From Branchiostoma lanceolatum (lineage: Eukaryota; Chordata; Leptocardii; Amphioxiformes; Branchiostomatidae), in NCBI RefSeq assembly GCF_035083965.1, contig NC_089723.1, positions 30,817,193 to 30,881,192 on the forward strand: 64,000 nt of DNA, given 5' to 3'. A program made the position numbers and the translations under genes. Shown here one piece after another: positions 3,509 to 64,000 of the stretch; the first letter of the stretch is position 1; each line of letters begins with the position of its first letter. The notes under the pieces were generated by a model. The model was not told where the DNA came from and searched no databases. It was given only the letters and a program-made list of their open reading frames with translations.

Positions 3509-6500
3509 ATGGAGGGCCCCATCCCTGTAGTGGACTTCCTCCCCTACAGCCTGGTGAACCACTGTGCGGACGATGACCAACTGGCCGCCCTGGCCGGTCA
3601 GCTCATCCATGCCTTCAGCACCACAGGGTTTGTGTACCTGTGGCATCACGGCATTCCTCCCGCTCAGGTAGGGGTGTCTTCTGTAGGAAATTCCCATTGC
3701 CATGCCTGCCCCATGCACCCAAGACGATGGAGAGATAGAGAAAGGGCCGTTGTAGTGATGTGTACTTAAAGGTTCAGGTCCAGTGATTCAGGTTCAGGCC
3801 TGAACCCATGGCATATTTGTGCTAGAAATATTTTTTCGGTTACATGTGAAATTGCATGTTGACCTAAATGTTACACGCAAGTTAGAAAAATATACATGCA
3901 AAATTATATACCGTGAGTAGTTAACACAAAAGCTTAGCAATGAACACAGAAACAGTGCAAATTTCATGACCCTATGGAAGGTTTTAGATGGTCTAGAACA
4001 TAAAGGAGAGCATAAGCGAGAGATTGCTTTATGCAAGTCCGGAACTGGTTTCCAACGTTTACATTTTTTTAATTGAACCTTAACGTTTTCACAAGTCCAG
4101 TTTAGGTCTACTAGTACTCTCCAAGCAGAGGAGTGGGTCCGGCAGGTTTTTGACGTGTTTTTAGGCGTTTTTGTTGGGCTTTCTACTTTGTCATGTTTTT
4201 TTTGTCCAGCCAAACCACACCTCTGCAGGCACTGACCTCGGGGCGGGGCAAACCTATTTACTTCCATTGAAAAAAGGTGGCAGTGCTCCTCCCCGAGAAC
4301 CATTAGATTATCATTAGTGGTAACAATTTTACTGCGCCGGATTATCACACATCCGGCAAGTGTAGAGAAGCATTCACCAGACCGCGCCGGTCCCCCGCTG
4401 ACTGCCCTATTCATGCAACAGGCTGGTGTCCACGATCCCACACCGGCATGATCATTGATAGCATCATAACGTACATTTCCATTGGATATCTCACAAGAAA
4501 AATACAATGATGCATGAACAAGACATATGAAATACATTTGTAGATGTGTATTACATATCAACTTGAACTGCATTACAGGTAATTATCCTAATCATTATCT
4601 CAGGCATCGTTAAATGGATTACGAACGGGAACTCGTACCTTGTTTACGTTACATGCTGTTACCGCTGCCGCCGCTCGCTGTGTTCATATTTAGACGGGAA
4701 CTTTTCAACAACAGTGACAGCGAAATTGACGTTGGAGTTCTACCAACAGAGACTTAAAAATTTCCAAATGACACCAGAGGATTGTACAAATTTTTGTGTG
4801 ATTCGTTCTTTGATGTTTTTTGGATGGTGTAAATGAAGTGCGGTCACGATAGGCAAGTCATTTGCTGACGGACATCGCAGCGACTTTCCAACATGGCGTC
4901 CTGATTGTTTTGTATGTATTTGTGGGTAGTAGTTTAGAGACTTTTTGAGATTATACGATATCCTCACACAACAGCATTGCATTTCCGCAGTGGGGAGTAA
5001 AAATGAGAGAATCTATGGCTATTTCGGGCTGTACTTTGTCTTCTGGTACGACGGCCCAAATGGTCTGGATCGTAGTTGAGTATCGCGGGGACTTTGTAAA
5101 CCCCAGATGTCTTTGGCTGCACATTGAGCTGTTATTTTCATACGAATAGTAATTGCAGTTAGCAAAAGGGTAGGGGAAGCGTAAGAACATGGCATGAAAA
5201 TTAATGCCACGACCGATAGACCGAGGATTATGTCCTTGGTTAGACTGGGCCGGAAGTTCTGAGGCGCGTGGGGAGGGAATCCCGTGCCTGGTCGGGCACG
5301 CTTCGCACTTACTTGTGAAACGCTTGTAATGTGTTGAAGTGATTAGGTTTATTAGGCATTGAAGCTTCCGTCTGCCGGCAGAGGTGTGGGTTAAAGATAG
5401 AAAGAAACCATGACAAAGTAGAAAGCCCGACAAAAACGCCTAAAAACACGTCAAAAACCTGCCAGACCCACTCCTCTGCTTGGAGAGTATACTAGTACTA
5501 GAAAGGAGTGTGGAAAAACTTTTACTAGCGCATATAGTGAATAGGTGTGTAACTGTAAGCATGCAAATGGTGTAGTAGTCAGCACCCCACTTCTGCATTA
5601 CAGGGCATACCGGCATAGCTAACAGTGTTCTGATTTACTTGCATCTGTAAGGGGTTACAAACCTTTGGATGGGATGATCCGATGCAAATTCTTTTGATAT
5701 GGATAGGTAAATGTTGATAGTTTGTACTATATGTATAGGTCCCAGAAATTTTGAGACCCAGTCATTCGGATTGAACAGACTTCATCTTTGATTTTCTTTT
5801 TAAGTAAGCTAACAGAAAATGTTGTCTAGTTTAGAGCTTCATGCCTTATAGAAAGCATTCCTGAGATGTAATTCTTTGTTTCTTTACACAGATCGACCGA
5901 GTCTTTCAAATGTCAGAGAAGTTCTTTGCTCTTCCCAAGGACGTCAAAGAGAAGTACGCACGACCAGCGGACAACAACCACGGATGGGTGACCCTAGAAC
6001 GAGAGAGCCTCAACCCGTCGCGCCCGGGTGACCTGAAAGAAGCCTTCAACGTGACGTGGGTGGAAAAACCGCCGGCATGGCCAACAGCGGAGCTTCCTGA
6101 GTTCCGAGACGTCGTACTGGACTTCTATGATAAATGCAAAAAGCTCAGCCTGCACATTCTGGAGCTGATTGCCAGGGGCCTACACGTGAAGGATGTTAAG
6201 GGGTTTGTTAAATCCCACGAGTTGATGGGTTTGGGGGCTAATGCCACAGCACTACGCCTACTCCACTACCCGCCGGTTCCTGCTGAGACCAAGCCAGACC
6301 AGGTGCGCTGCGGCGAGCACTCCGACTACGGTTCCATCACGCTCCTTTTCCAGGATAAGGTCCCCGGGCTGGAGGTTCTGAACAGGGATGGGGTGTATGT
6401 CCAGGCGCCTATCATCGAGAACGCCGTGCTGGTCAACATTGGGGACCTGATGCAGAGGTGGACGTCGGACCGTCTGGTGTCTACCAAGCACCGCGTCCTG

Positions 6501-6653
6501 CTGCCGTCCGACGGGGGACAGATGCGTCAGTCGCTGGCGTTCTTTGTCCACCCCGACGATGACGTCATGATCTCCTGTCTCGACGGGTCCGATAAGTACG
6601 AACCAATCACAGGCAAGGGATATCTTGATCAGAGGTTTGAAGCTACTTATTAG
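3509..6653 (+). CDS. 2-oxoglutarate/Fe(II)-dependent dioxygenase (isopenicillin N synthase-like, UPF0676/HxnY type), two exons
   Basis: Exons are 3509-3667 and 5892-6653 (stop included), joined in phase 0 (CAG|gtaggg ... acacag|ATC), giving 306 residues, normal for the family. The N-terminus has the family's substrate-side strand (PVVDFLPYS) and a GFVYLWHHGIP segment near residues 37-50, matching the GF..v.nHGi motif of DIOX_N. The C-terminal double-stranded beta-helix has the iron ligands H196 and D198 (GEHSDYG) and H253 (STKHRV), plus the 2-oxoglutarate-binding R265-x-S267 (MRQS). All catalytic residues are present, so a soluble active oxygenase is expected; its substrate cannot be read from sequence. 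An AG preceded by a pyrimidine tract at 3496-3497, 11 bases before the ATG, suggests a 5' UTR intron. The coding exons are much more GC-rich than their surroundings. An ATTAAA at 6666-6671 is a weak polyadenylation candidate. Confidence 0.86.
4115..5489. mobile_element. Long-TIR element, copy A (CTCCAAGCAGAGG family) in the dioxygenase intron
   Basis: Ends are TACTCTCCAAGCAGAGG ... CCTCTGCTTGGAGAGTA. The inverted repeats extend about 115-120 bp (4115-4227 and 5368-5489) with few mismatches. The hexamer TACTAG directly flanks both sides (4109-4114; 5490-5495). The interior has minus-strand open stretches (4951-5433 and 4740-4982). One of them has a G.TKSPRYS..IQTIW-like segment that faintly resembles the start of a CUB domain; this is weak. 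The element lies wholly inside the only coding intron of the dioxygenase gene. Confidence 0.75.
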
Positions 6654-6682
6654 GCTAGGAGGTCTATTAAACAATGCAAATC

Positions 6683-7053
6683 CAGGGCTCGAAATACTAT
6701 TGAGCAATTTGCAAGTCATATGAACTTGCAATTTTGCAAGTTGAAAATACCAGTGGATCGTTTAAGCACATATATACCCAGTTGTGCCTTAGCTTGCAAA
6801 ATAGTGACAAAGTGACTGTTGCTAGAGGAGAAATTAGTCTCTGACTTCTAAACAAGAAAGGCTACATAAGTAAATCTGTCTTTAGATGTTTAGTCTTCTA
6901 ATAATGCTATAAAAGTTGCTATGCTATGTCAGGTTGAGTACGTACATACTGACTGTAATATTGCAGATTAATTTTTCAAATTGCAGGTAACATTTTTGCC
7001 AACTTGCAATTTTGCAAGTACATGTAACCCCCAAAAAAGTATTTCGAGCCCTG
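6683..7053. mobile_element. 371-bp MITE with CAGGG ends in the 3' flank of the dioxygenase
   Basis: CAGGGCTCGAAATACT (6683-6698) mirrors AGTATTTCGAGCCCTG (ending 7053), and both flanks read AAATC. CAGGG ends are common in hAT elements, though only five of the expected eight duplicated bases match. Inside, copies of AACTTGCAATTTTGCAAGT occur near each end (6722-6740 and 6999-7019). It begins 30 bases after the stop codon, so it probably forms part of the 3' UTR. Confidence 0.65.
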
Positions 7054-8590
7054 AAATCACAATCATGAGATGTTAAAAAGTTAACCTTCCCCCTGCTGCA
7101 GCGACCTTTGGGGTTAACCCAATCAGTCCTGTAGCTACAAAATCAGGCAGCAGCAAGAATAGAATTAAGGGAAAGAAGGTTTGAAACTCTAGTATCACTA
7201 GACAAAGAATTGGAATTAATACTACATGTCACATGATGTGGTAACAAGAAAAGTACTAGGTTGATCATGTAGTCTTTATAAGACACCCTGTGTTACTGAT
7301 TGATATCTGTAGAATTTAATTAGACTTTGATAGCCACTAGTACTGGTGCATTTCATTAAGGGTCCAAAATTGATATTTCCATATTAGATGTAGGTGTGGA
7401 ATGTAGTATACCTGTAGGACAATAAGATATCTAGCTGAAAGCCGGTGTAATGTAAACATTCTTGTAATGCAACAGTATATTGTAAAGCATGTAATCACCT
7501 AAAATCCAACAGATGTTCAACATTAACTTGCGCACTTTCATTTTTCTGCTGTTTCTTGTTTCAATGATACAGCCGTAAATGCCTCTTGGTGATTTTGCGG
7601 TAAGAAGAAGATGGAGTGCTTGTGGTGGTTTTAAGTCCACATTGGCACTATAGCCACATACTAGTACTGTACAGTAATGGAAACGCCATCGGTTTGAGTT
7701 TGGGGTAAAACACCCATCATGAAAAGCGCAAACAAACATAAAACCACAGCAAGAATGTAAAGGATTACAGTACCATGCTAACCTAAATCGAGGTGATCAA
7801 TTTTATGTGTTCTTTTAAGATATTATGTATAACCGTATATTGTATGTGAAAGATGAAAATACTGCAGTTTAAATCACTGAAAATTGTTTGATTCAAGACT
7901 GAAAGTCTATGTTGAAGTTTCATTTTTTTGTGGGTGAATCATGAATTATCATTGTAATGTAGGGAAATTTCTTGCCAAAAAAGTAATGTAGTAAGTTGAA
8001 TTGCTTAAAATCTGGAGTGTATATGGCCAATGGCACATTTTCAGGATTCCTACTGACTATATTTGGTAGTGCCATACAACTGAATTTTCTACTGACTTTC
8101 CAACCCAACTGAAACCTCTATCTTGCCAGCCTCTTTGTTTTCCCAGTACACAGCATGTTTATACTAGAGTCAGTTTAGTTTTTATGTCTTGAGTGTATTC
8201 TTGACAAATATGAAATCAAAGTTTGAAGATCGTGTCTTTGTTCAACTGTGCCTTGTTAGTGTATTCACCATAACAGGTGCCTCATGATACTGTACAAGGT
8301 ACATTACGTACTTAGACAAGGTGGTAGATGGTCAAAAGTTTTTGTGGTGTTTTTAAGTTCGCGGCAAAGAGCTCACGGCAAAATCAGCAAACATAAAACC
8401 ACCATTAACATTTCTCACATTTACAGCATTACCGGTAGGTTGATGATGACTCGCCTTGGACTCCGAGTTGGAGGTAAGAATTTGGAGGTAAGGATTTTAG
8501 AAACCTTCCAGTACAACTAATATTAAGGTACAATAAAATTTCTTATCTAGTCTTCAAGGAAATGGCATACTGATTTGCATTATATCTCTC

Positions 8591-9589
8591 TACTCTCCAA
8601 GCAGAAGATGGGTTCCGGTAGGTTTTTGACGTGTGTTTAGGCGTTTTTGTCGGGATTTCTACTTTGTCCTTTTTTAGCGAAGCCTTAGGGGCAAGCTTAA
8701 TAGTATACTTTACGCCCGATTTGCAAGAATTCCACAGGAATGTCAGGAATCCGTCCGGCAAACTCTGTGGATGCCCTACTGTCACTTGATACCTCATTAT
8801 CACGTCTGGCATCCAGGCACTCAGCTGTCGATGACAGATGACCTACTTTTACGTGGTGTCCGATTTCGTACTGTCCGGAGTGTGTCAGGGAGTTCACCGA
8901 ATCTAGTATTCTAGCTTTGAAAAGGGTTTGCACATCCCAGTTGATCTATTATCACAATAACGTGCTGAACATCATGCCTCCCACCAAAAAACCTCTGTGA
9001 AAACCAAAACTTGAGGAGATCCAAGCATATAAAGAAAGTTTTAAACGGAACGATAAATAACTTGGGTTACCGCTTAGGCAGTCTACAGAGTGAACGCCTT
9101 ACGGAGAGGCGTGCGGTGTCGAAAAAACAACAGTAGCTCCTCGAAAACACATCCTATAGAGCTAGAATAACAACCAAAACGATCATAGGAGCCCCAGCAA
9201 AACGATTTTCTAAACTTCCGGCCTAGTTTCTCACTCCACCTATCCAACAATGCCAGACAAAAAAGACACTACAACGGGCCTTTCCACATATGCTAGGAAC
9301 TCCTCGAGTTACATGATGCCTTTCTATATCTGCTTGGCAGATGCCTTTCTGATTTCTAAGTGCGTTTTGCACAATATCATGGCAGAACTAAGATCTAGAG
9401 TGCTACGTTGGTACTTTCCTTACAGTGAAGTAAGATCAATCCAGACACCTTCGCTATGGCAATAATTTTTAATTGCCACACTTATTGTTGTTGATAGAGA
9501 CAAAAAGAAATGAAAAAGGAGAAAGCCCGACAAAAATGCCTAAAAACACGTAAAAAACCTGCCGGAACCCGTCCTCTGCTTGGAGAGTA
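8591..9589. mobile_element. Long-TIR element, copy B (CTCCAAGCAGAGG family)
   Basis: Same termini and subterminal sequence as the copy at 4115-5489; the TIRs are about 80 bp (8591-8672 and 9508-9589). A perfect 9-bp direct repeat ATATCTCTC flanks it at 8582-8590 and 9590-9598. The interior differs completely from the other copy and includes a 78-codon minus-strand open stretch (8697-8933) of coding-like composition that I cannot assign. Nine-base target duplications with long TIRs are typical of Mutator-like elements. Confidence 0.78.
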
Positions 9590-9690
9590 ATATCTCTCAA
9601 CAAATACCACAAGTATGAAATTGCTGTCCTTTACCCATGTTACAAGTATAGAACTTAAGTGTTTTCTCATTAATTATGCAGATTATGTCT

Positions 9691-14859: not shown

Positions 14860-17800
14860 ATGTACGCAGTGAACCTGAACCGCCGTCAGCCGGCCCGAAC
14901 TCAGGCACATCGCAAGTACGTCATTGGAGGAGCCAAGGGTCTGGGTGCTTCTCACATCGTGTTTGGCTGCCTGCTCATCACCATGGGCAGCATCGGAGCC
15001 GCCCTGAACACCGCAGACTTCTATATAGGCACTCACATCTGGACTGGACTAATGGTAAGCCCCCTATTGGTGTTTCCAAGCCCCCTACAATACTTTCCTG
15101 TATTCTCGTGAAACTTCATCTGTGTTCTCGCGTTTTTTTGTTGTAGGAAACGATTAAACTTTCTTTCAACACTAAGACTGTGCTCACAAAATTTTCGAAC
15201 AGTTTTCTGGTCTTCCTCAGTAACTGAGGACCCGGACTTTCCGGAAGTGAGGCGTGACCACCGGGTCAAAGGTGATTGGAAGTTTGTACCGACCCCCTGT
15301 TTAGTGACGGTTGATATACCAAGGTTAGGTGAACGTAGATTCCTGAGCAGAGACGGGAACCAATCACAGACTTCCAATCACCTTTGACCCAGTACTCACG
15401 TCGCATTCAATGAGTCCGACTTTATGGGGTTTTTATGTTATCATTTTCTGTAACGTTTTCCTATCATTGTCTATCATCAGTTACATTAGAAACCAAAATC
15501 TAGATACTGTATAACGGTTCAGTGGAGTAACATTGATTTATTGATTGTTACCTGTATTATTATTTTTCCATACCCAGTACCTGGTGACAGGTATACTTGG
15601 AGTCGTGTCCAGTCACAGGAACAACAAGTGCACGGTAAAGCCATGGCATCTTAGAAAACAGAATTTAGACAATATGGGCGCATGTACGGCCCTCGTGGCT
15701 TACATCTATTGGCCACTATAGAGGATCCGATAAAGTAACATTGTACCAAAATACATGTACAGTGTAATTTTCCACTGTCCAATAGCGGTCTTTCCCAGAA
15801 GTCACGTGACCAATCACATAGGTCACGTGACCTTTTGGACACGTGACGCTATCATTTGAAAAGGTTCCAAGTGCCAGGAAGTCTATACCGTCCGCCATCC
15901 CTAACGAATTTCTTTCTTTCTTTTTGTTCGTCGTGCACACAGGCGGTAGGCTTTCTGGCGCTGTCTTGCATGTGTGTCCTGATGGTCATTGCCGGCATGA
16001 CGTCAGCGTCGTTGGCCCTGTCATGGGAACACTGGAGCGTATTCAGCGGACCTGTGGGATGCTGGTATGACTACCAGACGGATGAAAACCACTGCAAAGG
16101 AATAGATGTAAGTTCGAGCTTCATTCTTCCAGAGACAATCATAAAGCAGATGCGCAGTGTGATACTTTTGTTGTTAGGACAGCCGAGATATAGCCGAGAA
16201 AAAGTCAGCAGAGTACGTGTTTTTTCATACTGCTAGAAAAACACAGTGTCAGTGAGCGATAATTATAAATTATTTCCTGTTACCTTTCCTCTATCAATCC
16301 TGGTATTAAAGGGCACTCGTTTGGGTCTGCACCCGTCTTTCGGAAGGGACGTAAAATGGGCATCCTGTGTTCGAGCACGTTGAATTGGAAGGGCTGGCAA
16401 CCTCTCCCTGTAAGAAATGTACCCTGCTACACTTTGAAAAAGCAAGGAAGCTTTCTGTCCTAGCTACGTGCCACCTCGAGATGTGAATGTTCTGTCCCAG
16501 GATTGAACCGAGGTCTCCCACTTTCTTATGTGCTGTTCTATATTTTACGAAAGACCTCTGACACGACGATGTTATCTTTGATCCCCGTAGACTGCCCGGT
16601 CTGCAGTCGACGCGGCAAACTTGCTGGGCGCCTTGGTGGAGATGGGCCTGTGTATCGCCTCTATTGTCGTCTGCTCGCACGCCATTTCCAAAGTGCGCCG
16701 TGAGGGGGGTTGGGGTGGGGAGGGGTGCGGCAGCGGCTGCTCTTGTTGTGAGAGCGGGCGGAGAGGACAACCTGCTTACCAGGTAGGGAGAGCCTGGTTA
16801 TTTTACTCTCCAAGCAGAGGTTGGTGGATAAGATTATTGTGATCTTTTTCTAATATGTCCCGTTTTTGTCGGTACTCTCCACTCTAAGTCCTCTGCTTGG
16901 AGAGTAGGTTATTTTCCGGGTAACCCTATACAGAAATTTGACGGGTATACGCAGCAATTTTACGGGTATACTTAGCAATCAGTTTACAGCTATACCTCGC
17001 AATTTTATGGGTATGCATAGCACTTTTAAGGGTTTACTCGCAATTTTACGGCTAAATACTTAGGAATTTTACGGGTAAAGAATTTTACGGTACAATCAGC
17101 AATCTTCCGTACGAGTATACTAAGCAAGTGTACGGGTATACTTAGCAAGTGTACGGGTATACTTAGCAATCATGATGCTTAGCAATTTTATGAGTATCCT
17201 AAGTATCTTTACGAGTATACTTAGCAATTTTACGGGCATACTTAGAGATTCTATGGGTATCCTATATACATACGGCGCACCAATTTTTCGGGTGTACGCA
17301 GCAATTTTACGGCCGTACGTAAAACGGTTACCGGAAACTTGCGAAGTATACGGATGGAATATGATAGCGGAAAATTTACAATGGTTTCGATAACATTGCT
17401 ACGTATACTGATAGAATTGCATTATATTAGGCTATATTGCTTAGTATACCTAGGTAACCCTGCTTAGTATTACTAGCTGATTGTCATATACTTCCATATG
17501 GTTTTCTGGGCTACATCCAGCGCAATAGATGTATCTTTTAGATATGTATACGTCAATTGAATATATAGCATTGGTACCATCATGGTTAAGAATTTAATAC
17601 AATGTATCTCATTATATCTACAGACCCTGCACGAAGTTGGGCCGGACGGTCGGCTACATGTGGCTCCAGTGCAAAACTTCAGCCAGCTGCAGTTCCACAA
17701 TCGACCCCAGGTGGCGCTCGCGCCCGGCCAATCCTACGTCATTTCGACCCAGGTGCCAGCATCCCAGAGTGGCCTTGAACAAGGTTGATAGACCGATCTT

Positions 17801-19749: not shown

Positions 19750-21102
19750 ATATATGGGGACATTTAGCAAATAAGAGGAATTTCCTTTTCCATCGCATTC
19801 ATTGGACAATATTTACGAACTGTACCAAATAGAAAATACCTAATTCTTTTGTAAATGGTCATTGTCTATGGCTTGTGTTGTCTTTTTCATGAAATATTTA
19901 GTTTGAGTTGACAAAAAATCAACGGAGAATCAGTTTCAAAATGAATCCAGTTTTTCATATGTGATGTTAAGTAATGGACCTTACAAGGTGTCAGATTTTA
20001 GGTGACTTCTTTTAGTGGACGTTTTCAACACACATAGTTCATAGTTATCCATAGCTAGATATCCAGTGTTCTTAGCATTCTACTTTCTCAGTTTAAAGTT
20101 AAGAGATGCTTTGTCGAAGTTTAATACTGTAAATGTTGAAATGTTCGCGGTGGTTTTATCAAGTTATGTTCACGGCTTTTGCTGTGATCTCTTCTGCTAA
20201 CTTAAAACCACCACAAAGATGCTTCTTGTGTCTTCTGTCTGCCGACCTCTTTGTGTCAACCGCGAATTTGAAACCATTGCTAACACTCCGTTTTCTCCCT
20301 ACCTCGAAATTCAAAACCCTTCAAACTTCTGCACCCCCGTTAAAATTTACAGTGGTTGCTGCATAGTTGTCCTCACCAAAGCACAAACGGAAGTGCGTAA
20401 GCTGAACAGTTGATCAAAGTGAGTGCAGCAGCCCGCCTGCCTTAACGCCGTGCCACGCCGCGTGGGTTGTGATTTGACAAACAACGACTGAAGAAAGTCC
20501 TCGTTTCACTAGTTTCTTCAGCTAGGATTTTTCAACATCTCACCTCTCGGTAAGTACGTGTTTACCTGCCCTGGCTGCATCCTGGAATAGATTGATAAAG
20601 GATAATAAAGAGCAACAATGCCTCTACGTGCGAGGAGGGCGTATTATTTTGTAAACCTAGTTGATATAACATAAAGAAGAGCAGAGTAAATCCTTTCAGC
20701 CAGGTAGGAAGGTCTCTTGTAGTTGAGGCTGCCCTTCCAATTACCGTGAACTGTCATTCCAGGCGTGTGTGGACAATAGTTGTATACTACTGGGTGGTAT
20801 TGCGATTCCCAAGCTGACGCAGCAAAAAGCTGAGGAAATATGGTTGGATTTTTGACTAGGTCGAACCCCGAACGACAGAAAGAAATGTCGAATGTTTACG
20901 AGGTAGCTAACGTTAGTGTCAGTGGCATAATTTAGGTCAAGTACAATTAGTCAACACTACTTGTGATTCACGCGAAAACGCCTGACATTGAGATTGAACT
21001 TGAAGAAAAACCCTGCGCGGCCTCTCGCTCAGACGGCTGAATGCCAAGAAGTCGGCCGCTATCGGATTTCAACCGGCTGCCAAAACCCGCAGCGAATCGG
21101 TT

Positions 21103-21268
21103 ATCTCCAAGTAGATGTAAGGACCGGGCTCAGTCTCCGTGTTCAAGAAATTAACCTTCTCGACTCTTTCTGAAGGCAGTCGAAAACATGCACTGGTAGA
21201 AAAATATACTAAAATGTTCCCAAAACACGCGTATAACACTGAGACTGATCCTACATCTGCTTGGAGAT
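21103..21268. mobile_element. 166-bp MITE with ATCTCCAAGyAGATGTA ends
   Basis: Ends ATCTCCAAGTAGATGTAAGGA-like (21103-21123) and its near reverse complement (21249-21268). It belongs to a sister family of the CTCCAAGCAGAGG elements and lies upstream of the second tetraspan gene. Confidence 0.6.
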
Positions 21269-22180
21269 TTAGTGAATGTTATACCTATTTGACATTCACA
21301 GCAGGGCTGTACCATTTACAGTTTTGAGGGGAGGGGGGACTTTCAACACTGTTGTTGTTGCAAATTAAACGGAGCAGAACACAAAAGCCGCACAACAACA
21401 CATTATCTAAAATTTCACTCATGGAATTTTCTTCTGTTGCTACTCTTTTGATTTCTTTGAAAAAGGAAGCGTAAGAGACAGTTCTGTTCAGTAGAAATGG
21501 GGAGGGCGCACTGAGGTGTTGCCTTTGAATGAAATAAAGGGATAAGGTATTCACAACCAGTTAGTGGCAACTTCAATCAGTTGAAGGAATAATTTTATTT
21601 GACAAGGTTGCATATAAGAATTCGAAGGCTAAAGACCTATAAGGTTAAAACTAGCTGTTTTGACAAAAGTGCCAATATGTAAATATTTTCTACATTTTTA
21701 ATTTGTTAATTCAATTTGTAAAAGACAAACCTCAGCATGATCTTTATTAGCTTTCTGTATGAAAATGACTTGTTGATTTGATTGGAAATCAGAGAATGTT
21801 CCTTTAGAACATCTGATTCAAGAGAAAATTGGATTCATCCCTGATGATACTATCATACTATCTGATAACAAACATTTCCAAAATATTACAAATCACAGTA
21901 TCAAATCATTTTTATCCAGATCGATAAACAATGTTTACCAATGAGAACTATTTTTTGAACTGCACTTAAATCTAAAATCTACAAACGTAAATTTTGACAG
22001 TTTTGCAGGACATGTACTTTCAAGTTTGCGGCCTTTGGTTATGTTATGGTAGTGTTTCAGCTCCAAACTGAAAGATACTCTTACTTTTTACAGTGCCTCA
22101 ATCTCTTACATTAATTAGTGCCGCAAATTTGAATAAATTGACAGTATAGTTTTTTTTACTTCCTACAGCTACACAACATA

Positions 22181-26446: not shown

Positions 26447-28084
26447 GTCAATCTCATATGTTGTCAATTTATGTTGTCAATGATTAGGCCACATAGACGT
26501 AATTTTAGGGATAACTATCATCAAATTTTGATAGTCAGCCTTTTGTATACCATGTTGGTGCTTCAGGCTATAGCCTCGGGCATGAAATGAATGAGAAATA
26601 CTGTGAAATTCACAAATGGTAATGTTATTTGCTCATGAAAATTATTCTAAAAACAGACCTGGCCATTCTAGTACATTGTGTATCAGATTTTGGATGTTGG
26701 CTTGTTTATTGTAAGTGTTGCAAACTTGACCTTATGTATTCAATGTAACGTTATCTTTAAAAAAAGGACCAAAAGTTGTAAGAAAATGTGTAAGGACAAT
26801 TTTACTTTTATGCGTATGGGATGCAGTAGAATCTAGAATATATTAAAACTAGGAACGTTTGATTATCTAGGATGCTTCACTTTTATAATCTTTATCACTT
26901 CAATTTATGTTATATAACGTTACAGGTAAATGGGGTATCACTATACTATAGGACTTCTTTGGCATTGCACTCCTTTGTTATAATTGCATTTTTAGACTAT
27001 TATACACTGTAGTGAGTTGCAAAATTTATCGATAAAGCATATCTTTAGTATAACCTAAATATAGAATGTTCCTGCTACTGAAACAGCAAGGAAACTTGCT
27101 TGCCTATGTGCCATTAGGCACTACAAGGGTCTGAACCAGCAAATGTTGTATTTTTTGTCAAATGTTATCGAGATACATGTATATTGTTTATCAATGTAAT
27201 TTTTTGCACTCAATTGTTTATATGTAAACTGCATATCATCAATAATGTATAAATTAAGATTTCACATTTTGCACTTTCCAATGGTTTCAGATTCTGTAAT
27301 AACGCTACAGATTATGTTCAAGTTTCCAGTTTGTGTCTATGTATATGGACATTTTTATTTTGTCCTTCAAAACCAGTTTAAGATGAAGTTTAGATTTGAA
27401 TCAAATGTTACTCCAATAGAAGTCACAATCTTTGAAAGTTATGTTGGAAAGGTATGAAATGATGATTGTTTAATGTTGGAAAATTTGTATTCTCCAATCA
27501 GAGGTTTCGGTCAAGTAGGGTAGGGGTGTCCGGGATTTTCAATATCTCTCTTCCTTGATGAAATAGAAAATTTGTATTTATAAGTTCATTCATGATTTCT
27601 TGAGATGAGACAGTATTATAATATACTGACCTCTCTCAGTCTGTTTTTGCTTTGTTAACTTTTTAGATTGATCATTATATAATGTGACAATCTTACAAAA
27701 ATTGTCACGGTATGCATCAAACTTCATCATGTCCCCATTCCTATTACAAACGAGTGACAGACGGGTTCCGTCCATAGAAATGGATTACTAGTACACTCTG
27801 CTTTAAATATTTGGGACAGTAAAATGTAATCTCACCAAAACCGCTAGATAGTGCCTCATCTCGACACACTGTTCAATGGGCATGGGGGTGTAGACTGTAG
27901 AGCTTCCTTCGGTTTGTTTTGATCGATGAGCGTACGCGCGTATAGACCAGAAAGAAGTCCTGATCATGAATCCCACATAGAAATACCGCTTTTGACAAAT
28001 ATATTCACAATATAAACATTCACAATATTCATTTCATCTCATTTTATTCATCTCCTTCGGTACTTGTAGGAGAATGCAGAGGGT
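26447..28084. other. Intergenic, AT-rich, nothing recognised
   Basis: 3' flank of the downstream tetraspan gene. It contains only a segment near 27070-27150 resembling an intronic repeat at 16420-16510 (CTGCTAC...AGCAAGGAA...GTGCCA). Confidence 0.5.
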
Positions 28085-29790: not shown

Positions 29791-29865
29791 GTCACATATA
29801 GTACATATAACTTTCTGCAACATCATTAGTAGAGCTACCACCGCACATCTACTTGGTTTTTGGCA

Positions 29866-29924
29866 GAAGAAGAAGAAGAAGAAGAAGAAGAAGAAGAAGA
29901 AGAAAGAAGAAGAAGAAGAAGAAC
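29866..29924 (+). repeat. (AGA)n microsatellite
   Basis: About 18 GAA triplets, just beyond the last satellite monomer. Confidence 0.9.
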
Positions 29925-30040
29925 AGGCAAGCAAAAACAGTATATCCCCCTTCCCACTGGAAGGGGAATATAAAAAAAGGCGCACAACTAAAAAGACGTA
30001 CTAAAATGCAGAAAATGTAAAACACCGAGGCGTAGCCGGA

Positions 30041-30215
30041 TCCTTACATCTGCTTGGAGATTATCATTGACTAATCTTCAAGCAGACGTTAGAGGGAAAG
30101 ATCATCACATTGTTCTGACCTCGTTTTTCTGACGTATCATTCGTCCTGAAAAAAGGGAAAATCAGACAGAAAACGTCAAAATCTCCCTTCCAGCATCTGC
30201 TTGAACTGTTGGGGA
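30041..30215. mobile_element. Composite of ATCTCCAAGCAGATG-family ends
   Basis: TCCTTACATCTGCTTGGAGAT at 30041-30061 is followed by a mirrored pair, AATCTTCAAGCAGACG near 30073 and CATCTGCTTGAACTG near 30193. It looks like two overlapping or nested MITE ends. Solo ends of the same family occur at 1324-1340 and 18653-18668. Confidence 0.4.
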
Positions 30216-31184
30216 TTATCACTGGCTGGAGCTGAGCGAATTGTGCAGACCTGTGTACACGTCACGGTAGACCATGCGTCCCTAAGTACTTGTGTCATCA
30301 CACTATTGGCTGATCGCCGATTAATCCATTTGTGATAAACCAATAAGATGCGAGATAAGCCCTAATGGGCAGGATGATTGATTGATCGACTCGTCGTATC
30401 TGTCTCATGAATAGATAAAAGCTTGATATACAAAATGCCATTCAGTAGATAAAGTATACTTGAAGAAACAATGAATAGATAAACAGAATTATGAAAAGAT
30501 GAAGACATCCATAAAAGAACATAGAACATCTGAAGAAAATTAGGAGTAAAATACAAATACAGCAAAAGTTCGGATGTAACAGTTACAGATAATGTTAGAT
30601 GCATGTAACGTTAACGTTACTTAGGGGAAATGTCAAGAGGATTTTTTTTCAACAACAAAACGATAATTTAACATATTTCGGATGGGTGTAGATAATATCG
30701 GGACATTCCTATATCATGTCAGTCTTTATCCATTGTCTAGTATTATATACTGACTGAATTTACCAGTGTCCCTAAACGACCTCGGGACACAGATTAGGAT
30801 ACAGAGTTCGCTGACCGACGTTGAGCTTACTGTAGAGTGACACACCTATAAGCCTTTTATCAATATGTATCTATTATTTAAATCCAATAGTGAATGATTG
30901 ATGAAACACAGTGTGCATGATTCGTGCAGTGGAAGGATTTTGGTACACGCCACTGTCAATGTGTCTCTTCAAATTAGGCATCTGTTGTTTTGTGTTCGTC
31001 CTTTCTAGAATTCTGTAATTTGTTTTTCATGGTCTACATTCTATGTTTCTGTATGTTTCACGCAGTTTAAATGTTGGTGTCTTTGATATATATTACCGAG
31101 GTCATTGTGTCTCTTAAAATTAGACATTACTTTGGCATCGAATCACGAGAATAAGCATTACGTGTGTTCGCCCTTTTTGCAGTT

Positions 31185-36444: not shown

Positions 36445-36449
36445 TTAAT

Positions 36450-39704: not shown

Positions 39705-39914
39705 TTAATGGGTCATTTTCTTGTATATTTTCAAGGTGAATATTCAAGGTGAATATATATCTTAGTTTTATGAACATATGAATATCGTTGACTTGTGTTG
39801 CAGTGCATTTCTAACGAAAATGATGGAGCAGTGAACACGATTTCACATATTTCTCGTGCTTGTCCTTTTCGTGGCGGAATTGTGTCTCCAAGTAAAAGTT
39901 GGACATGTTGTAAT

Positions 39915-41620: not shown

Positions 41621-42154
41621 GTGGCCCCAAGAAATACAGCCAGTTGTAATTACTTACAACATTTCATGGCATTCTTGATTGATACAACACATGCAGTCAA
41701 AATGGCAAATGCCATCCTATCATACCCACGCTACGTGGACGTCAATGGCATTTTTGACAGGACCTTACACCACGGGGGTTGTTTGTCATTCGCCGTTGAG
41801 GCATGGACGGCATGTCGCCTCTGCCGAGTAGAGACATATATAGTACGCCGAAGCCGTGCATAATCTTGGCAAAGAACACTGAATAAAATATTTAAAACCC
41901 GGCCGACCTCAACGGAAAAATCCACCCTTAAATGTACAAAACTATAGCCCCACATAGAGTAATATATCACTTTGCCTTCGCCCAACATGCTGTCAAGTCG
42001 ATGGTAACACTTCCTTTCTTTTCTGCGTTGGTACAAAGTGCATGTCGTTCTATCATGTGTTGCTATATGAATATCCACCTTATCAGTTCAGTGGAAGGAG
42101 TATAAATATACTATACTTATTGATCAAACCAATCAAATTGCTCATAAGATCCTA

Positions 42155-42271
42155 ATCTCCAATCAGATGGAGTGTTTTGCGCGTGTTTTTTGGCTTTGTG
42201 TGCTTCTTTCTAGAGGCCCACGTTTTTGTCCCTTCCCACCATCTAGTCGGACCTTACATCTGCTCGGAGAT
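42155..42271. mobile_element. 117-bp MITE with ATCTCCAA ends
   Basis: ATCTCCAATCAGATGG at 42155 and TACATCTGCTCGGAGAT ending at 42271 form imperfect TIRs of the same sister family. A partial extra end (CTCCAAGCAGACGTAAG) follows directly at about 42279. Confidence 0.5.
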
Positions 42272-42834
42272 TGAGAAGCTCCAAGCAGACGTAAGTCTCT
42301 TTGAGGAAAACATGGAAGAAAATCTTTCGATAACTCAGACTCTACTGCCTGAATGTTTATTATGCAGGGAAACCTACCATTCATAGGGGCGTAAATTAAA
42401 TTTTCTTTTGTTTACTGAAGTGAAATGAAATTATTTAGTTAGTAACTCAACACCGTCTGAATTAAGCATGTAAGCCAGTCTGTATGCGTCCTTGGCGAGT
42501 TGTAAATAGAATATTGGTAGTCCTTCGAAGTCGAAGATGACTGTCGGTGTTGCTCATTCATGCTTTGGCCCCATTTCCAATCCGGGGCTCGGCCGTGCAG
42601 TTTGTTGGAACAAAAAGTATGATATAAAAGACAACAAAAGACACAAAACGTTTAAGAAAATTTCTTCTAACCATATTATAATGTGCATTTTCTTGATACG
42701 CATTTTTTGATTTTTTGTTTTCGTTAACAGCCCGGCCGGGCCCCGAATTGGAAATGAGACCGAAGCATAACGGGGGATGTGACCTAAATAGATAGAATAA
42801 CAATTGGCGGGGAATACTGTGAATGCGTTTAAGT

Positions 42835-43029: not shown

Positions 43030-46000
43030 TCATCGCCATGAAAACTGTACCGGTTGCGGTCCTTGGGTAGACATAACCAGTCTGTCTGGCGGTATTTGTA
43101 AAGCTGATCCATAATTCATGAAGTTTTGACGGTAAACATCTTCAGTTTGCCTGGGGGTTTGCTGCAGCGCGTTCTGTGGCGACCCGCATTCCTCTGGTAA
43201 TGTTAGTCACTGCGTTGTCCTACATAACTTGAAATCGGCTAGCCATACCCGCAAGATGCGCTATACATCTGGTCTAAAACACCAGCCAAATCCATAGCCT
43301 CCGATGCAGACTCCTCCCGGCTGTTTTCTTTTTCAAGTTACAGTTTTTATACTACATGTATTACATTTTTTTTTCTTATTGCTGGCCGGGAAGGACCAGC
43401 TGTGGGGGCTAATAACCTTGTGGTTTCAGTTGTTAATTAAGATGTAAAAGGTTTTGGGTTCAAATCCCTCGCATGTCTCAATGTTGTATCCTTGGGGAAG
43501 GCACTTAAAGCCGGTTTCCTTACTCTACCCAGATGAAAATGAGTACCTAGCTTCGGTTAGGAACGTCCCTCTGACACGTTATAAAGACCCCACCACATTT
43601 ATCAATAAGAGAAGGGGTCCTTCCCGATTTGAGTTAGTAGAATCGGTCTTTGGTACGCAGCTTGTATCTAACCTACAAAACCTAACTGGTGCGTTACGCC
43701 CTGACTAATGCGAACACTCAGAACACCCTAGCGGTCGTTGACCGAGAAAAAGGACCCAAAGCGTCAAGCCTCCAGCATTTGAATACAAACTCGCGATATA
43801 CGTAAAACAAGTAATGTTGAACTGGCTTGCTATTTCAACATAATTTCCAAGCAAATGTTGAAAGGAAAGGTTGTAATCGCATTTCCAGACTTCCCCGTTT
43901 TTCTGACTTTCCTGTCTGACTTATGACCTAGAAAAACAGAGCAGCCCACGCTTGATTAGATTAAAGCTGATGCTCTATACAGCTGGTCGGGCTGCGCAAC
44001 AGGTCTGGCATGTTTCTCGGGCCGATCCCTGCCTGTCTATCACAATTAGCAGTTCAACCAATGACAGCGTGGTAATTAGCAGTCAAACCAATTAGAGAGG
44101 GCTGCATGTCCGCCACATATTTGAATCTGTATGTTTCTATTTTATATGTCTGCATTTCGACGGAGGTGGGCGTTGCTATGGAATCGGGAGTCCCGGCTGA
44201 TACGGTTGCTATGCAAGCGACCCCTCATAGCAACGGTTATAAAAGAAACATCATAAATCTAAACATCAGCCCACATCTGCCTCAAGATCAAAATAGACAA
44301 TAGCAGAAACAAAAACAACTTGTATTAGAAAACAGTCATGGTCTCTAACTAAAACACAGTAGTCTTTTACGTCTAAGTCTTAGACGTAACTCTAAGTTCA
44401 CCGATAATTAATGCTATTGGCCTTGAAACAGCGTAGAATATATTTGACCCAGCCACATCGTCTTTTTCCAAACGACACAAAATATATTTAGTTCATGTCT
44501 TTTATCATATCATCATGGCATTTGAGAATTCTGAAAACAGCTTACACGTACACGTAGGGACGACCGACCATTGAGGTCTACGACTAGTTCCCGTACTCTG
44601 TGGCATTCTGCCATCAGTGGAAACTCTCCTCTCCCTCGATGCTTTCCAAGAATCACCAACTTGTAGCTCTGAAGCCAAGTTTTACCGGACAAACAAGTAG
44701 ATGCGATGTCATTTGATACACACCATCCCGGGATCCCGCTGTCTTCATACCCTATGTAAGTAGTACATGTACATTCAGACCCCTGTCCAAGAACGGGAAC
44801 CCATAAATACTCCGTAACCTTTGGCACTACTTCTGTACCAGATAGGCCATTTGTAGGCGGTGGTGGAATATATATACGGGCGCCCGGGGCACTCAGGTCG
44901 AGGGTAAATCAAACATCTCACTGACACTCACGTCCCCATTCGCGGGGAGATATTTGGAGAGCAGACACCGTGGAAAATTCCTTGCGTCATATGTGCCGGC
45001 TAGAGAAATGCGTCCCACGGTCCTATGCTAGTCCAAAACTCTCCCTCTCTCTCTCTCATCCTAGACAGCGTGCAGTTCATCAAAATGGTACCGCTTCTAC
45101 TGTCTTTCATTTGTAAATTGTATAGCTCCGAATTTTGATCTTTGTTTGTGGACAGCGTTGTCTGTGATGTTCGGACTTGTTCAGGAACTTTGTTCCCATC
45201 GCATTTTATTTTCTTCATACTTAACAGCGTTCACAAATCTACGAACTTCTATATGCTAACGGTATGATTGATCCTGAAAGTCTTTGATAGTGGTCCGAGT
45301 TTTCATCGCCATATACACGTCCAGGCTTATGCACATGTATAGATCTATCCGTATATAACTCGAGTACTACATGGGCAAAGGGTACCGTGCAATGGTTCGT
45401 CCTTAACATTCCCGCGAGTTTTTGTACAATGACAGTCAACTGGTCGACCTGTCTTTCTGATGGTACAGTTGTCAGTGTCACTGTTGCCCCAGGAATTTGA
45501 ACAGACTACAAAATGAATTTTACCGTGCTTGTGAAGCCCCTACTATATGAAGAGATCCTCCCTAATCAATGTACGACTCCATCTTGGCAGATAGCCCTGA
45601 CTCGTGCTACGATCATTGGCGCCGCACCTAGAATAAACGAAAGTCGTGCGACTTTACGGACTCTTGAGTTAGATATGTCCAAATTCTTGTGATAGCCCGG
45701 TATCCATCCGTTTTTCAGCCGGTGTTCGCTTCCTACCGATTACCCGGCAGTCGAAAATTGATGGATGCTATGCTAGCTTTTAGTTTTAGATCAAATTTCG
45801 TGAAGAATATACTGGTAGTGCACTGTCAGAGTAGCGCCAAAATTCTTTCTCTTGAAATGTGGACTCCAGATATGTAACTGTGGCAAAGGCAAAAGCGTAC
45901 AGCAAAAGAAGAGATCGGAGACGGAAAAATAAATGTTGACCACGTGATGTCACTACACATACAATGGCGTTCTTTATGGCTTTAAGTTCTAATCACCCTT

Positions 46001-46137: not shown

Positions 46138-46202
46138 GTTATGTTTCGCTATGTTTCGCCAACGAAACATATTGTTATGTTTCGCCAACGAAACATATTG
46201 TT
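46138..46202. repeat. Twin hairpins abutting the large tandem duplication
   Basis: ATGTTTCGCCAACGAAACAT occurs twice (about 46152-46171 and 46177-46196), each an 8-bp stem around CCAA, preceded by a half copy at 46141. The block ends a few bases before the 1,495-bp duplication begins. Confidence 0.7.
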
Positions 46203-49085: not shown

Positions 49086-49190
49086 ACTTGGATTTGCCCA
49101 GGAGTTATTTTGGGACAGCCCACTTCTTGCATGAGGAGTATGGGCGAAACATCCTGAATTTGCTCTTAAAGCAAATGACGGCCAGTCTAG

Positions 49191-58600: not shown

Positions 58601-61600
58601 GTGGCACAGTTACAGGTGAGATTTCAACGTGTTTTGTTTTTCTTTAGATTTAATGGAAATTTACAGATCTTGAAAGCTCTGTTGTTTTTACAGTTGAGGA
58701 TATCTATTAACGTACTCCATGGTAAAGTTAACTGTTAGAATTGTTCCTTTTTTATTCTATGAGAGGAAAGCTTTATGGCATCTTTGAAGCCATATTGAGG
58801 TGAATCATGATGCTTGTATTCCTAAGGAAGTCACAGTGAAAATGTTTGTACATGGTGACTTTGAAAAAAAATTGACCACTTTTCTCTTCCTGCCCCCCTC
58901 CCCCTTCAGATAGCTAACCTGTACAGTCAGAACAGAGCGCTGGTCCTCGGGACGTTCAGTGGCCTTTTTGCCAGTTCTTGTACCGTGTTTTTCATCTTTT
59001 CGGTGAGTTGCTTACCTCTAATAATGTGCCGTCTTGTGTATTCTGTGGCTTAAGAAAGTATTATGACGTCTAGACACTAGCTTAACAGTTCAAAGAAAGG
59101 TGCTATTTAGAAATGAGAGGCATATTGATACCTAAAAAAACAACAAAGTCCGGGGGTTGAACTGTTCAAGCAGATTATAGGGCAATTACCTTGAACTGTC
59201 AAAATCTGACTTCCATCCGCTGTGACATTGTCCAGACAACCATTGTTGTCGTTTGGGGCGAACCAAAAAAAGGTGTGCGTCGGGGTGGTTCTCAGACTAG
59301 AAGTGCCCAAAAAAATATGTACACAAGACAATTGACAGAAAATGCAGCACAACAGAAGAAAATAAACAGTACATGGACTATGTACCAATACATACGAAGG
59401 GGGCTACACAAATTAATCCCCAATTCGATTTACCGGTGACATGACAGTGGGCAAAAAAAAAAAAAAAGAATCCAAAAAGCGAGGAGGGGCACCATGACCA
59501 TTGTGGAATTAAAATACTCCTCCCCGTTTGAGTGACGGCAGATTTTCCGTGGCTTTTGGGATCTATTTTGGCCACTGTCATGCCACCGGTAAATCTGCTT
59601 GAAAATTATCACAAATCTCATAATGGAGCCGTCCCTCGGCCTCGTCTTTCGTCGCCATGGCAACAGCCTTGCTTTTGAATGGACGTTAATCTCACTTCAT
59701 CGGAGCTTTTGTTAACATTCCTCCGCCGTAGAGACAGATAATATCATGATAATTATCAAGATGAGATAATGATGCAGTATGCTTTGATATTATCATCTGG
59801 CTTTGTAAATTGTCAACATATCTATAATTCATTTAGGCATGGACTGTGATAAGGTTACTATGTTATTACATTATCATGATTAATCATGCTAAACATTAAT
59901 TTGCCATCTGGCCAAGTTCTCATGTTTTCATACCTAGCACACTGAAGTAGCTATATAGCCGTTTGGCACCCGATTCTCTATTGGTTACAGAGTTAGGCAG
60001 CAGAAAGAAGTCTAATAATACATATCTTTTTGGTTTAAAAATAATTTCAAACTTCATCGGGGATAATACACACTGTATTGTCAAACCCTTCAATTTGATT
60101 TATTAAAAGGCACATGGTATCCACAACAAGGAGATAGCAACCAAAGTTATTCCTGGCAGCTATCTAAAATACAGGGGATGAAAATATTGAAATGGTTTCG
60201 TCACATAAAGTTACGTATGGAAGTCACTGATCTCTAACTTTTATACAACTTGTTATGTTTTAAATTTGCATTTTCACGGATGCCATTGCCTACCGGGAGA
60301 CGTGGAGCACTATGGGTAGCGCAGGGGAAAACAACGTCATGATCATGATTATAACATAGAAACAAGAGCTTTTAAAAAAAGCTGGCGTTTCGGCTACGTT
60401 TATGAGTGTGAATTGTCTTTTCCCTTTACTTGAAGTAAAATCTGCCAGAGGAAGTCACTCAAGGGCTGTTCAGTCTATAAGAAAAATTGTCATTTTGGGA
60501 AATGAGTACTGTTTTAATAGAGAAAGGCAGATTGGGGAAAGCAATTTTGAAGTTACGTCACTTAACTTAAGTGCTTTTGAAAAAGCTGGTCTTGGCCTAC
60601 AACTTGTACTTATTTGTAAAATGTATAATAGGCTCATTATAAAAGCTATCAATGTAATTATGTACATGGCACGCAATAAAACATAAAATTTGAAAAAGCA
60701 CCATTGAATCATCAGCACTATGGTAATTAAGTGAAATAGAAGTTCATAACAGCTAAGGTTCTATCTAAAATGACTACCAAATGTCAAACAAATCAACAGC
60801 TACCTCATCCGTATTATTCTGGTTTCCGCATTTACAACATTTCTTCCTTATTTTCCTGGGTAATTTTGCTAAAATTCATGAAAATTCCCATAGTTTTGTG
60901 CCGAGGGGCGCCACTTTCCACGTCCGTGTTGTCTGAATGAAGTCGATACTGAACAATGGAGCATTTGCTACTGTAACAAAGAATCGCTGTTTTGCAAACA
61001 ACATCAAGAGCCTCTGTTTACATCGGGGATAGAAGTTTTGTGGCGAGTGTTTTGCAAGAATCATCTTACCGCGCATAGGAGCCGCTGCACGGTATTTTCC
61101 ATTACAATGAACAGAAAAATTCGAATGCCGGGTTTGGAATCTATGAAGTCCTGTTCATAAGACAAAGGCCTTGTATATATTAAATGAATATTTGAAAATA
61201 ACAAATATAAAATATTTCTTTATTTATTAATGAAAAAAAATGATATTCATAAATATGATATTGATAGATTAATATAATATCAATATATATTTTTGATATT
61301 CAATATCTAAAAAGAAAAAAAAATCCATGCACGGACACGAACCCGTATCTTCTGGGTCCGAAGTGCTTCGCGTTGCCAGATCGGCCAAGCTGCGGTACGT
61401 AACTGGTCACCCTGGACGTAATGCTATAACCTCACTATATGGTATCATTTATGCCGATTTTTGGTCGTTTTCTTGACGAAATCATTTTTTTTCTTCTGCA
61501 ATCTTGTGGAATAGATGTAATATGGTCATTTTTCAGGATATCAAAGTCCGAAACCACAATGCAATGATATTTCCGAACAGTTGTAGCAGTTACATGCGGT

Positions 61601-64000
61601 CGCCCTCCTGTGTCACATGCAAATCTAGCCTGCCTGCCTTTTCGTGCTCTCTTGCCATATAAGGCAACGGCTATACAAGGATTTGGGAACGTATTGCCAT
61701 ATAAGGTCTTATTGTGTGCGACACAGTGTTGAACCAAGGAACCTCCTTGGTTGAACCAAGCTTCCTTCCTTGAAGGTAAAAGCCAGGACAATGCGTTCCG
61801 GCGCGCATGCGCCGAAACGCAAAAATCAAAAAGAGGGAAAAAAAGGGAAAGTGATCTTGATCCAGTTTAGCTCACTGAAAAGCTATTCTGCCACTGGTCG
61901 TGACAGAGGAGACAGACGCAATGTACAGTATTTACAGGTTCATTGTACCTGGGTAATACCCCCCCCCCCCCCAGTTCTTTTCGACAAGCACAGTGAGCAG
62001 TGGCTTAACGTCCCGTCCTAAGGACTGCGACCCTTTCCGGTAGCGTGCATTTCGGGTGAGCGACACAGCCGGAAGACAGGGCACAGTACGCATGCGCGGC
62101 ACACGCGGTTTCATGTTGTTTGTCCCCTGCTCTATATCTACCATGATGCTTCGCATCTCCCAGCATGAATTGCCATTGGGATTCGTGAAAATGTCTCTAT
62201 GGTCTGTAACTAGCCCGTGTCACGCAAATCTCTCCCTGCCAGGGGCTAATCCCCCCCCCCCCCCCTACTCTCCAAGCAGAGGTTGGTGGAAAACATTGTG
62301 ACCTTTTCATCATATGCCCCCTTTTCTGCCGACGATCTTTTCCACCAACCTCTGCTTGGAGAGTACCCACCTCCCTCTAGTTTGGAGTCGGTCAGTCGGG
62401 CTAGTCTGTAACCAATCGACTTCATTGTTTCAGAAACTGTACGAGCGTGGGTTTGACATCCATGTCATGTTCTACCTGTGGACGGGCGGAGCCGTGATAC
62501 AGTTCCTCAGTGCCATCTTCCTGACGCCGGACGAACCCATTCTCCCACCGGCGCGGGGGTCGGAGGACACGTCGTTGGGAGACTCGTACTCCAGCGGGTC
62601 GTCGGAAAAGTCCTCGTCGAACTCTGTATTCAGAAAGGGCTCCAAAGACCAATGGTAAAGATGACTATGAGTTCAAACCTTTTTTGTAAACAAACGATCC
62701 TTATTTGGTAAAGACCTACCCGGTGACAAAAATGAGAGAAACTTGTAATCAACCTTGAACAGTTTGATCAGGTTTGTAAGTCACGGGATAATAAAGTTCT
62801 TTGTACACAACTAATTGTTTTGTTCAAGAGACCGCATCTGTTAGCAGCGACACCTTGCTGCAGTGCGTAACAGAATTGCATTCAGGAAGGTAACAGACGG
62901 ACGAAACAGTTGAATAAAACAGCTCATTGTTTACGAAGAATTTTGTTATCCATTGCAATCATCCTGTTTACAAACAAACAAGAAACAAACAAAACGATAA
63001 AAACAAAACAAATGGCACCAAAACATAACAAAATTCATAAGTGTTAATTCTTTTCGACCCGTCCCAGGTTGACCACAGAAGTGCAGACCGAGCCCAGTGC
63101 CAGGTCCTTGTACCTGTCTCCAGACTACCTGTGGCTGCTCGTCTGGCTCTCCGTCTTACAGCTCAAGTTCTTCTTCATGGTCGCCATCTTGAACCAACAA
63201 CTCAACGTCCTGTCGCTAGACGACGGTTCATCAGGTGCGTGGTACGATTCACGAGTTAAACATGAAAGACATGATAGCTTGCAATTTGAAAGTTAACCTG
63301 TGTTGGTAGAATTCATTATGAAGGTATTTTTTCCGGCAATTTCTGACACAAAGCTTTGAATGTCATCCTCAATCCTCTATTTCTTTCCAGTGAACTGGTA
63401 CCTGAGCTGCTTCGCCATCATCCAAGGCGCAGGGCTCCCCTTCTCGCCCCTGGCCGGTTGGGTCATGGACAGGGGCTGCAAGAAACCAATAGCGGCGCCT
63501 AGCTTCTTGATGATGTACTACAGGATACAGAACATTGGCCATCGGTTGGCCCTGCACCAAGACAGCAACAGTAACTACAACTTCAACTTGGTCTACAGCC
63601 TGAAACACGACAGGAGAGGTAAGTTACGTTGAAGGATCGAATCTGTGAAGCTCAGGGGTTACTATGTTGCCTTTTATGGTACATGTATAAGTTTCACAAG
63701 GCTGCCTGCGAAGAAACTAATAGACTAAAAGGGTGAACATGATGAGTTGTTTGCATTTTCCAATACCAAAGCCTAAAGCAACTGTCTCCCAATCTTCTAC
63801 TTCTATCGCTTTGCTTAGCCTGATGAAAATGAGATTACCAGCAGTTTGCGCATACATGTACATAGTTACAATTAGTTACAGTTAGTTTTGAGAAGTGCTT
63901 TATTCTGTAAGCTACTGTAAAAATTATCTAAATCTACCACTACAGCCCTGGAGCTTCAGTTGCCAGACGAGCACGTGGACCAGAAGGACCAGTCCAGAAG
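52672..64000 (+). CDS. SLC43-like major facilitator transporter, 5' eight exons (3' end outside window)
   Basis: Exons: 52672-53375, 56378-56424, 58539-58615, 58910-59002, 62434-62654, 63068-63234, 63391-63618, and 63946 to beyond 64000. Phases 2,1,0,0,2,1,1 keep one frame for about 530 residues. SLC43 proteins are facilitative large neutral amino-acid transporters of the plasma membrane, with some members carrying nucleobases. TM1 is about residues 17-43; TM2 (200-221, LAYTLGSFLLSG) runs into the MFS motif A, DRFGARK (223-229). Exons 2-4 encode TM3-TM5, and the ANLYSQNRA stretch matches the TM4-5 region of SLC43A3-type proteins. Exon 5 has LYERG, TM6 and a Ser-rich loop; exons 6-7 hold TM7-TM8. 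The first extracellular loop (44-199) is unusually long, polar and likely disordered, with C53, C193 and an NRT sequon at N184. The start is the first ATG of the open frame. TM9-TM12 are missing because the window ends. Confidence 0.86.
56690..56995 (+). repeat. Two-unit direct repeat of ~150 bp in SLC43-like intron 2
   Basis: CACCTGTAATCTTTTTGGCxACG..CTCAGAAGCGGGGC..AGATTCCACGA..ATTC is followed by CACCTGCAATTTAATGGCGACG..CTCAGAAGTGGGGC..AGATTCCATGA..ATTC in the same order. Confidence 0.65.
57191..57535. mobile_element. ~345-bp MITE, same family as 50155-50705
   Basis: TTAGGCCACAACAAGTAAAG then TCTATGGATGACAT at the left mirrors GTGTCATCCATAAGATAAAC then TTGCTATGGCTTAA at the right. It lies in intron 2 of the SLC43-like gene. 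Confidence 0.6.
61328..61402 (-). pseudogene. tRNA-like sequence (decayed tRNA or SINE head, Arg-like anticodon arm)
   Basis: The minus strand reads a D-arm-like TGGCCGATCTGGCAACGCG, an anticodon-loop-like CTTCGGA, AGAAGAT, and a T-arm-like GGGTTCGTGTCC. The word order matches tRNA-Arg of the CTTCGGA-loop type, but the anticodon and T stems pair poorly, so a functional tRNA is unlikely. It lies in intron 4 of the SLC43-like gene. Confidence 0.45.
62266..62365. mobile_element. 100-bp MITE of the CTCCAAGCAGAGG family
   Basis: About 28 bp of perfect TIR (TACTCTCCAAGCAGAGGTTG and onward). It sits in intron 4 of the SLC43-like gene, 68 bases before exon 5, and next to a run of 15 C, so any target duplication is unreadable. 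Confidence 0.8.

Follow-up and report, generated by a model that had tools for sequence, protein, structure and literature searches.

The 64,000-nucleotide stretch of the Branchiostoma lanceolatum genome analysed here (the window) carries two segments, E1 and E2, with common ends and different interiors, and the question raised by this locus is what kind of mobile element they represent and how the DNA between their ends was acquired. A preliminary description had read them as Pack-MULEs, i.e., elements of the Mutator superfamily (MULEs) whose interiors are captured host gene fragments. Our data revealed that E1 and E2 are real non-autonomous TIR DNA transposons, with matching ends and unrelated interiors (Table 1), and the evidence on the origin of these interiors and on the superfamily is weighed below.

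Both elements start and stop where the preliminary description had placed them, with inverted terminal repeats at these exact boundaries, as in non-autonomous TIR DNA transposons. The two arms of E1 are 96.5% identical over their first 85 nt (89% over 117 nt) and those of E2 87.1% over 85 nt, while the four pairings of an E1 arm with an E2 arm yielded 87.1-88.2% over 85 nt, in agreement with the shared terminal sequence described earlier. Split into segments, identity between the E1 arms is 17/17 (positions 1-17), 65/68 (18-85), and 22/32 (86-117), and that between the E2 arms 16/17, 58/68, and 6/32, respectively; hence, the TIR common to the four arms stops near position 85. The interiors are indeed unrelated, as had been proposed: no similarity was detected between them (local score p=0.22 against 200 shuffles; best blastn E=0.12), and no further copy of either was found within the window. 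Between E1 and E2 lies the last exon of a 2OG-Fe(II) oxygenase gene (5892-6655, plus strand; Pfam 1.7e-23), and a U5 spliceosomal RNA was identified at 574-685 on the minus strand (full-length Rfam match, 63.1 bits).

Table 1. Transposable elements and candidate elements located in the window, with their component parts.
Feature	Positions	Strand	Observation
E1, non-autonomous TIR element, 1375 bp	4115..5489	.	Inverted arms 117 nt, 89%; flanks TACTAG/TACTAG
E1 left arm	4115..4231	+	Outer 85 bp common with E2; inner end has the tip as inverted near-copy (11/12, p=0.005)
E1 right arm	5373..5489	-	Inner end has the tip as inverted near-copy (13/14, p=0.0005)
E1 interior, 1141 bp	4232..5372	.	Six-frame Pfam 0 families; codon signal absent; no match in window
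E2, non-autonomous TIR element, 999 bp	8591..9589	.	Inverted arms 85 nt, 87%; 9-bp duplication ATATCTCTC, 9/9
E2 target duplication, left copy	8582..8590	.	
E2 target duplication, right copy	9590..9598	.	
E2 interior, 829 bp	8676..9504	.	
M3, 103-bp MITE	16804..16906	.	Same 17-bp ends; 8-bp duplication GGTTATTT, 8/8
M4, 100-bp MITE	62266..62365	.	Same 17-bp ends; no clear duplication, poly-C left
121-bp MITE, related ends	42153..42273	.	Core like E1 arms (p=0.001 and 0/1000); duplication 7/9
195-bp MITE, one related end	59414..59608	.	Duplication 7/8
147-bp candidate element, one related end	30072..30218	.	Duplication 6/8
170-bp candidate element, two related ends	21101..21270	.	No clear duplication
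450-bp candidate element, one end related, the other weak (4 mismatches)	43841..44290	.	No clear duplication

Target-site duplications were examined with element boundaries fixed at the TA...TA tips. The perfect 9-bp duplication previously described at E2 was recovered (9/9), and M3 is flanked by a perfect 8-bp duplication (8/8). Duplications of 8-9 bp hold for these two elements, but not for E1, where TACTAG matches at 6/6 and just 5/9 positions match at length 9, nor for M4, whose left flank is poly-C and where none is clear; 21101-21270 and 43841-44290 also lack a clear duplication. Among random position pairs in the window (n=200,000), exact matches of 8-10 bp occurred at a rate of 0.0002 and those of 6-7 bp at 0.0007, and an exact 8-9 bp duplication was present in only 2/9 two-ended candidates (E2 and M3). 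A TA duplication, as in a Tc1/mariner reading with the TA outside the element, was rejected, since the repeats of 9 and 8 bp at E2 and M3 sit outside the TA.

Minus-strand open stretches of coding-like composition had been proposed for both interiors, one of them faintly CUB-like. The longest open stretch of E1 has 162 codons, a length reached by 3% of 500 dinucleotide shuffles, and that of E2 has 84 codons, reached by 52%. A single host exon (about 254 codons) served to train the codon score, a small set for which the exon's own first rank is circular. On this score the E1 stretch falls on the median of the background, being equalled or exceeded by 53% of 155 background open stretches (which include the E1 and E2 stretches of at least 75 codons and exclude those overlapping 5850-6700), an overlapping 107-codon E1 stretch by 34%, and the E2 minus-strand stretch by 17%, so that the coding-like composition was not sustained. 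A second presumed exon (62434-62600) scored above all 155 background stretches, and Pfam named no family in its region. Furthermore, the 12 six-frame translations of E1 and E2 returned 0 Pfam families at E<=10, and hence no transposase, as in non-autonomous TIR DNA transposons. When isolated, plus-strand stretches of E1 and E2 gave sub-threshold matches to uteroglobin (E=0.03) and PAP_NTPase (E=0.12), both below the curated cut-offs and neither of them CUB, with the neighbouring exon matching 2OG-FeII_Oxy at 1.7e-23 as positive control; HMMER filters lose weak matches. The faint CUB likeness found no support, as the fragment matched nothing in Pfam or PDB, and the three pieces searched against PDB (two E1 fragments and one E2 frame) had no match. 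From the shuffles, the codon score, and six-frame Pfam, the open stretches were rejected as genes. A 262-codon minus-strand open stretch at 3794-4582 was likewise rejected as a captured gene, because it extends beyond E1 into the flank. In brief, no host-derived cargo was found in E1 or E2 by six-frame Pfam, PDB with three pieces, codon score, or copies in the window.

The ends of E1 and E2 carry a motif, TAMTCTCCAAGCAGAKG, which has 21 matches at <=3 mismatches in the window, against a mean of 0.48 expected from 100 dinucleotide shuffles (largest count 2; 0/100 reaching 21), so that both elements are long members of a wider MITE-like group with such tips. Eight of these ends come from E1, E2, M3, and M4 and show a total of 1 mismatch over the 17-bp tip, seven come from five further candidates, and six are unpaired (1323, 18655, 27488, 30047, 42275, and 54128). 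The partner of end 59592 was located via the duplication search, so the duplication of the 59414-59608 element is not independent; a duplication-blind inverted-repeat search recovered the same partner with a score of 50, against 27 for the best of 60 shuffles. The far end of the 30072 element was chosen by eye, and a single element spanning 27488-30063 was rejected, having no duplication. At 30063/30072 and 42273/42275, two ends of the motif group point away from each other within 8 bp or 1 bp, as though copies inserted into one another's tips or next to them. The exact 17-mer was also detected in 33 stretches of viral contigs, of which 32 have one common flank unrelated to the TIR; the remaining one (L005) is different as well. 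A blastn comparison of the window with those 33 stretches at E<=0.001 gave nothing, longer patterns were present in 0 stretches of viral contigs and 0 of prokaryote genomes, and among the papers listed by a literature search with the tip sequence as letters, no title concerned these elements.

Other repeats were observed in the window. Positions 46200-47697 and 47695-49192 form a head-to-tail 1.5-kb duplication with 99.8% identity, either very recent or an assembly artefact. A tandem repeat of ~127 bp occurs in two arrays of opposite orientation (28134-29860 and 46697-47603), up to 86% alike, and an inverted pair of 632-bp at 36442-37073 and 39082-39711 (98.4% identity) possibly represents the arms of a young mobile element.

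M3 and M4 had been regarded as ~100-bp deletion derivatives of the longer elements. They have the 17-bp ends in common with E1 and E2, but the sequence that follows differs: in 3/4 of their ends the tip is continued by TTGGTGGA, unlike the sequence after the tip in E1 or E2. Beyond the tip, M4 shares no match with the TIR (p 0.41 to 0.84), and M3 has a single further 12-bp match (p=0.006 for 2/4 arms and 0.08 for the others), while M3 and M4 align with each other end to end at 77% over 106 columns. Judged by these alignments, they are sister MITEs with common tips rather than trimmed forms of E1 or E2; save for the 12-bp match in M3, a derivation by deletion was not borne out.

In this context, we consider with good confidence that E1 and E2 belong to the non-autonomous cut-and-paste DNA transposons, that they are mobilised in trans and have passive filler interiors, and that they are long members of the MITE-like group. 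Their ends (the 17-bp tip plus the ~85-bp arm) would be bound by a transposase from another part of the genome, which would excise the segment and reinsert it with a staggered cut, generating the 8-9 bp duplication. The interiors would be passive filler between constant ends, varying through deletion and template-switching gap repair that copies other DNA, and it is proposed that they differ between copies because they were acquired in this way. As neither a transposase nor an autonomous copy was seen, we infer mobilisation in trans, which together with this origin of the interiors is the most likely course of events. Near-invariance of the tip (a single mismatch among 8 ends) in arms that otherwise drift is as expected of a recognition site. 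Exact boundaries, inverted arms, the perfect duplications of E2 and M3, unrelated interiors, and the 21-match motif all favor this explanation; the E1 duplication of just 6 bp, the small share of two-ended candidates with an exact 8-9 bp duplication (2/9, with none clear at M4, 21101-21270, and 43841-44290), and the 6/21 motif ends without a partner count against it.

The structure of the E1 arms raises another reading. In each arm, the sequence around position 117 repeats the arm's own tip region in inverted, nearly identical form (11/12, p=0.005; 13/14, p=0.0005). The core of the 42153-42273 element resembles the E1 arms (p=0.001 and 0/1000), more weakly the E2 arms (0.033 and 0.01), and M3 (0.002), with no likeness to M4 (0.76), these p values being the 6 forward comparisons among 12 made. 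From the inner tip copy and this resemblance, an E1 arm looks like a MITE without its last ~10 inner bases, and E1 could be a composite of two ~120-bp MITE-like units, inverted with respect to each other, that move the intervening DNA via their outer tips. However, the inner ~10 bp of a full MITE end (TTGGAGAGTA) are absent from both arms, the E2 arms have no inner tip copy (p=0.49 and 0.72), and an inverted motif within the TIR might just as well serve as a second site for the transposase. A composite origin of E1 is, in our view, unlikely.

It is also doubtful that E1 and E2 arose by internal deletion from different parts of a single long autonomous element belonging to another superfamily. 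Retention of different segments would give a shared TIR with unrelated interiors, but no transposase domain is present in any frame of E1 or E2, and their interiors are without mutual similarity.

Regarding the superfamily of these trans-mobilised elements, duplications of about 8-9 bp are also generated by hAT, P, Merlin, and Zisupton transposons, and membership of E1 and E2 in one of these is possible. Our leading guess is that they are Mutator-like. Mutator duplications measure 8-11 bp, compared with 9 in E2, 8 in M3, and 6 in E1, and the long TIRs of the superfamily are present (85-117 nt), a feature that is not specific to it; likewise, the MULE description in the available part of one survey fits E1 and E2 in duplication length and TIR length (PMC6446971). 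Since no transposase lies in either element, it is duplication and TIR length by themselves that point to Mutator. Most ends begin with TAC or TAA, whereas G/C in the first three TIR bases is reported, in the excerpted text, for most arthropod MULEs (PMC13359780), which is a tendency and not a defining rule.

The Pack-MULE reading was correct as to TIR transposons with common ends and different interiors, but its host-derived cargo was not found in the searches described above and its Mutator component stands on the two lengths just given. Long TIRs, 8 and 9 bp duplications, and unrelated interiors agree with it, as does the precedent of Aedes, where Muta1 derivatives are described, in the portion of the paper at hand, as sharing TIRs only, with 8 or 9 bp duplications and host gene sequence in about 20% (PMC5225508). 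Against it are the empty Pfam result across all 12 translations, the lack of a codon signal, the lack of copies of either interior elsewhere in the window, and the TAC/TAA termini. Moreover, the excerpted text of a 2019 survey reports limited evidence for MULEs in chordates and did not reproduce an earlier Branchiostoma MULE (PMC6446971), and that of a 2021 survey of 100 animal reference genomes reports no Pack-MULE (PMC8277862). Capture of host gene fragments by Mutator elements is therefore improbable here. Quite improbable, finally, is a chordate MULE family that repeatedly gains unrelated host DNA between constant arms (true Pack-MULEs), with E1 arising from two MITE-like units that mobilise the intervening segment.

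E1 and E2 now constitute a well-defined query for repeat searches, in the form of the 17-bp tip and the 85-bp arm, whose boundaries are exact. If the interiors were host DNA and the partner a MULE, these elements would bear on MULE persistence in chordates, a matter raised in the available text of PMC6446971, and on animal Pack-MULEs beyond mosquitoes, as far as the excerpts of PMC8277862 and PMC5225508 go. Compared with MITEs, to which M3, M4, and 42153-42273 correspond in their 100-121 bp, inverted ends, and absence of coding capacity, E1 and E2 are ten times longer and each has its own interior. Animal Pack-TIRs, mostly hAT and Tc/mariner in the excerpted account, resemble them as TIR elements with non-TE interiors, explained there by gap filling with template switching, but a matched parental host sequence is part of their definition, whereas E1 and E2 are known here from the window alone (PMC8277862). 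Muta1 of Aedes aegypti, a member of the Mutator superfamily, has features of its own according to the portion of its description used here, none of which was found in E1 or E2: its TIRs measure 145 bp and contain a 12-bp subterminal tandem repeat in 9 copies, its transposase is known, and about 20% of its derivatives include host fragments (PMC5225508). According to the same text, mixed-interior derivatives with host fragments are already known for this animal MULE, and Muta1 and its non-autonomous derivatives share with the elements described here the occurrence of 8 or 9 bp duplications in a single family, long TIRs, an imperfectly palindromic tip, and variable interiors between TIRs that are all the derivatives have in common (PMC5225508).
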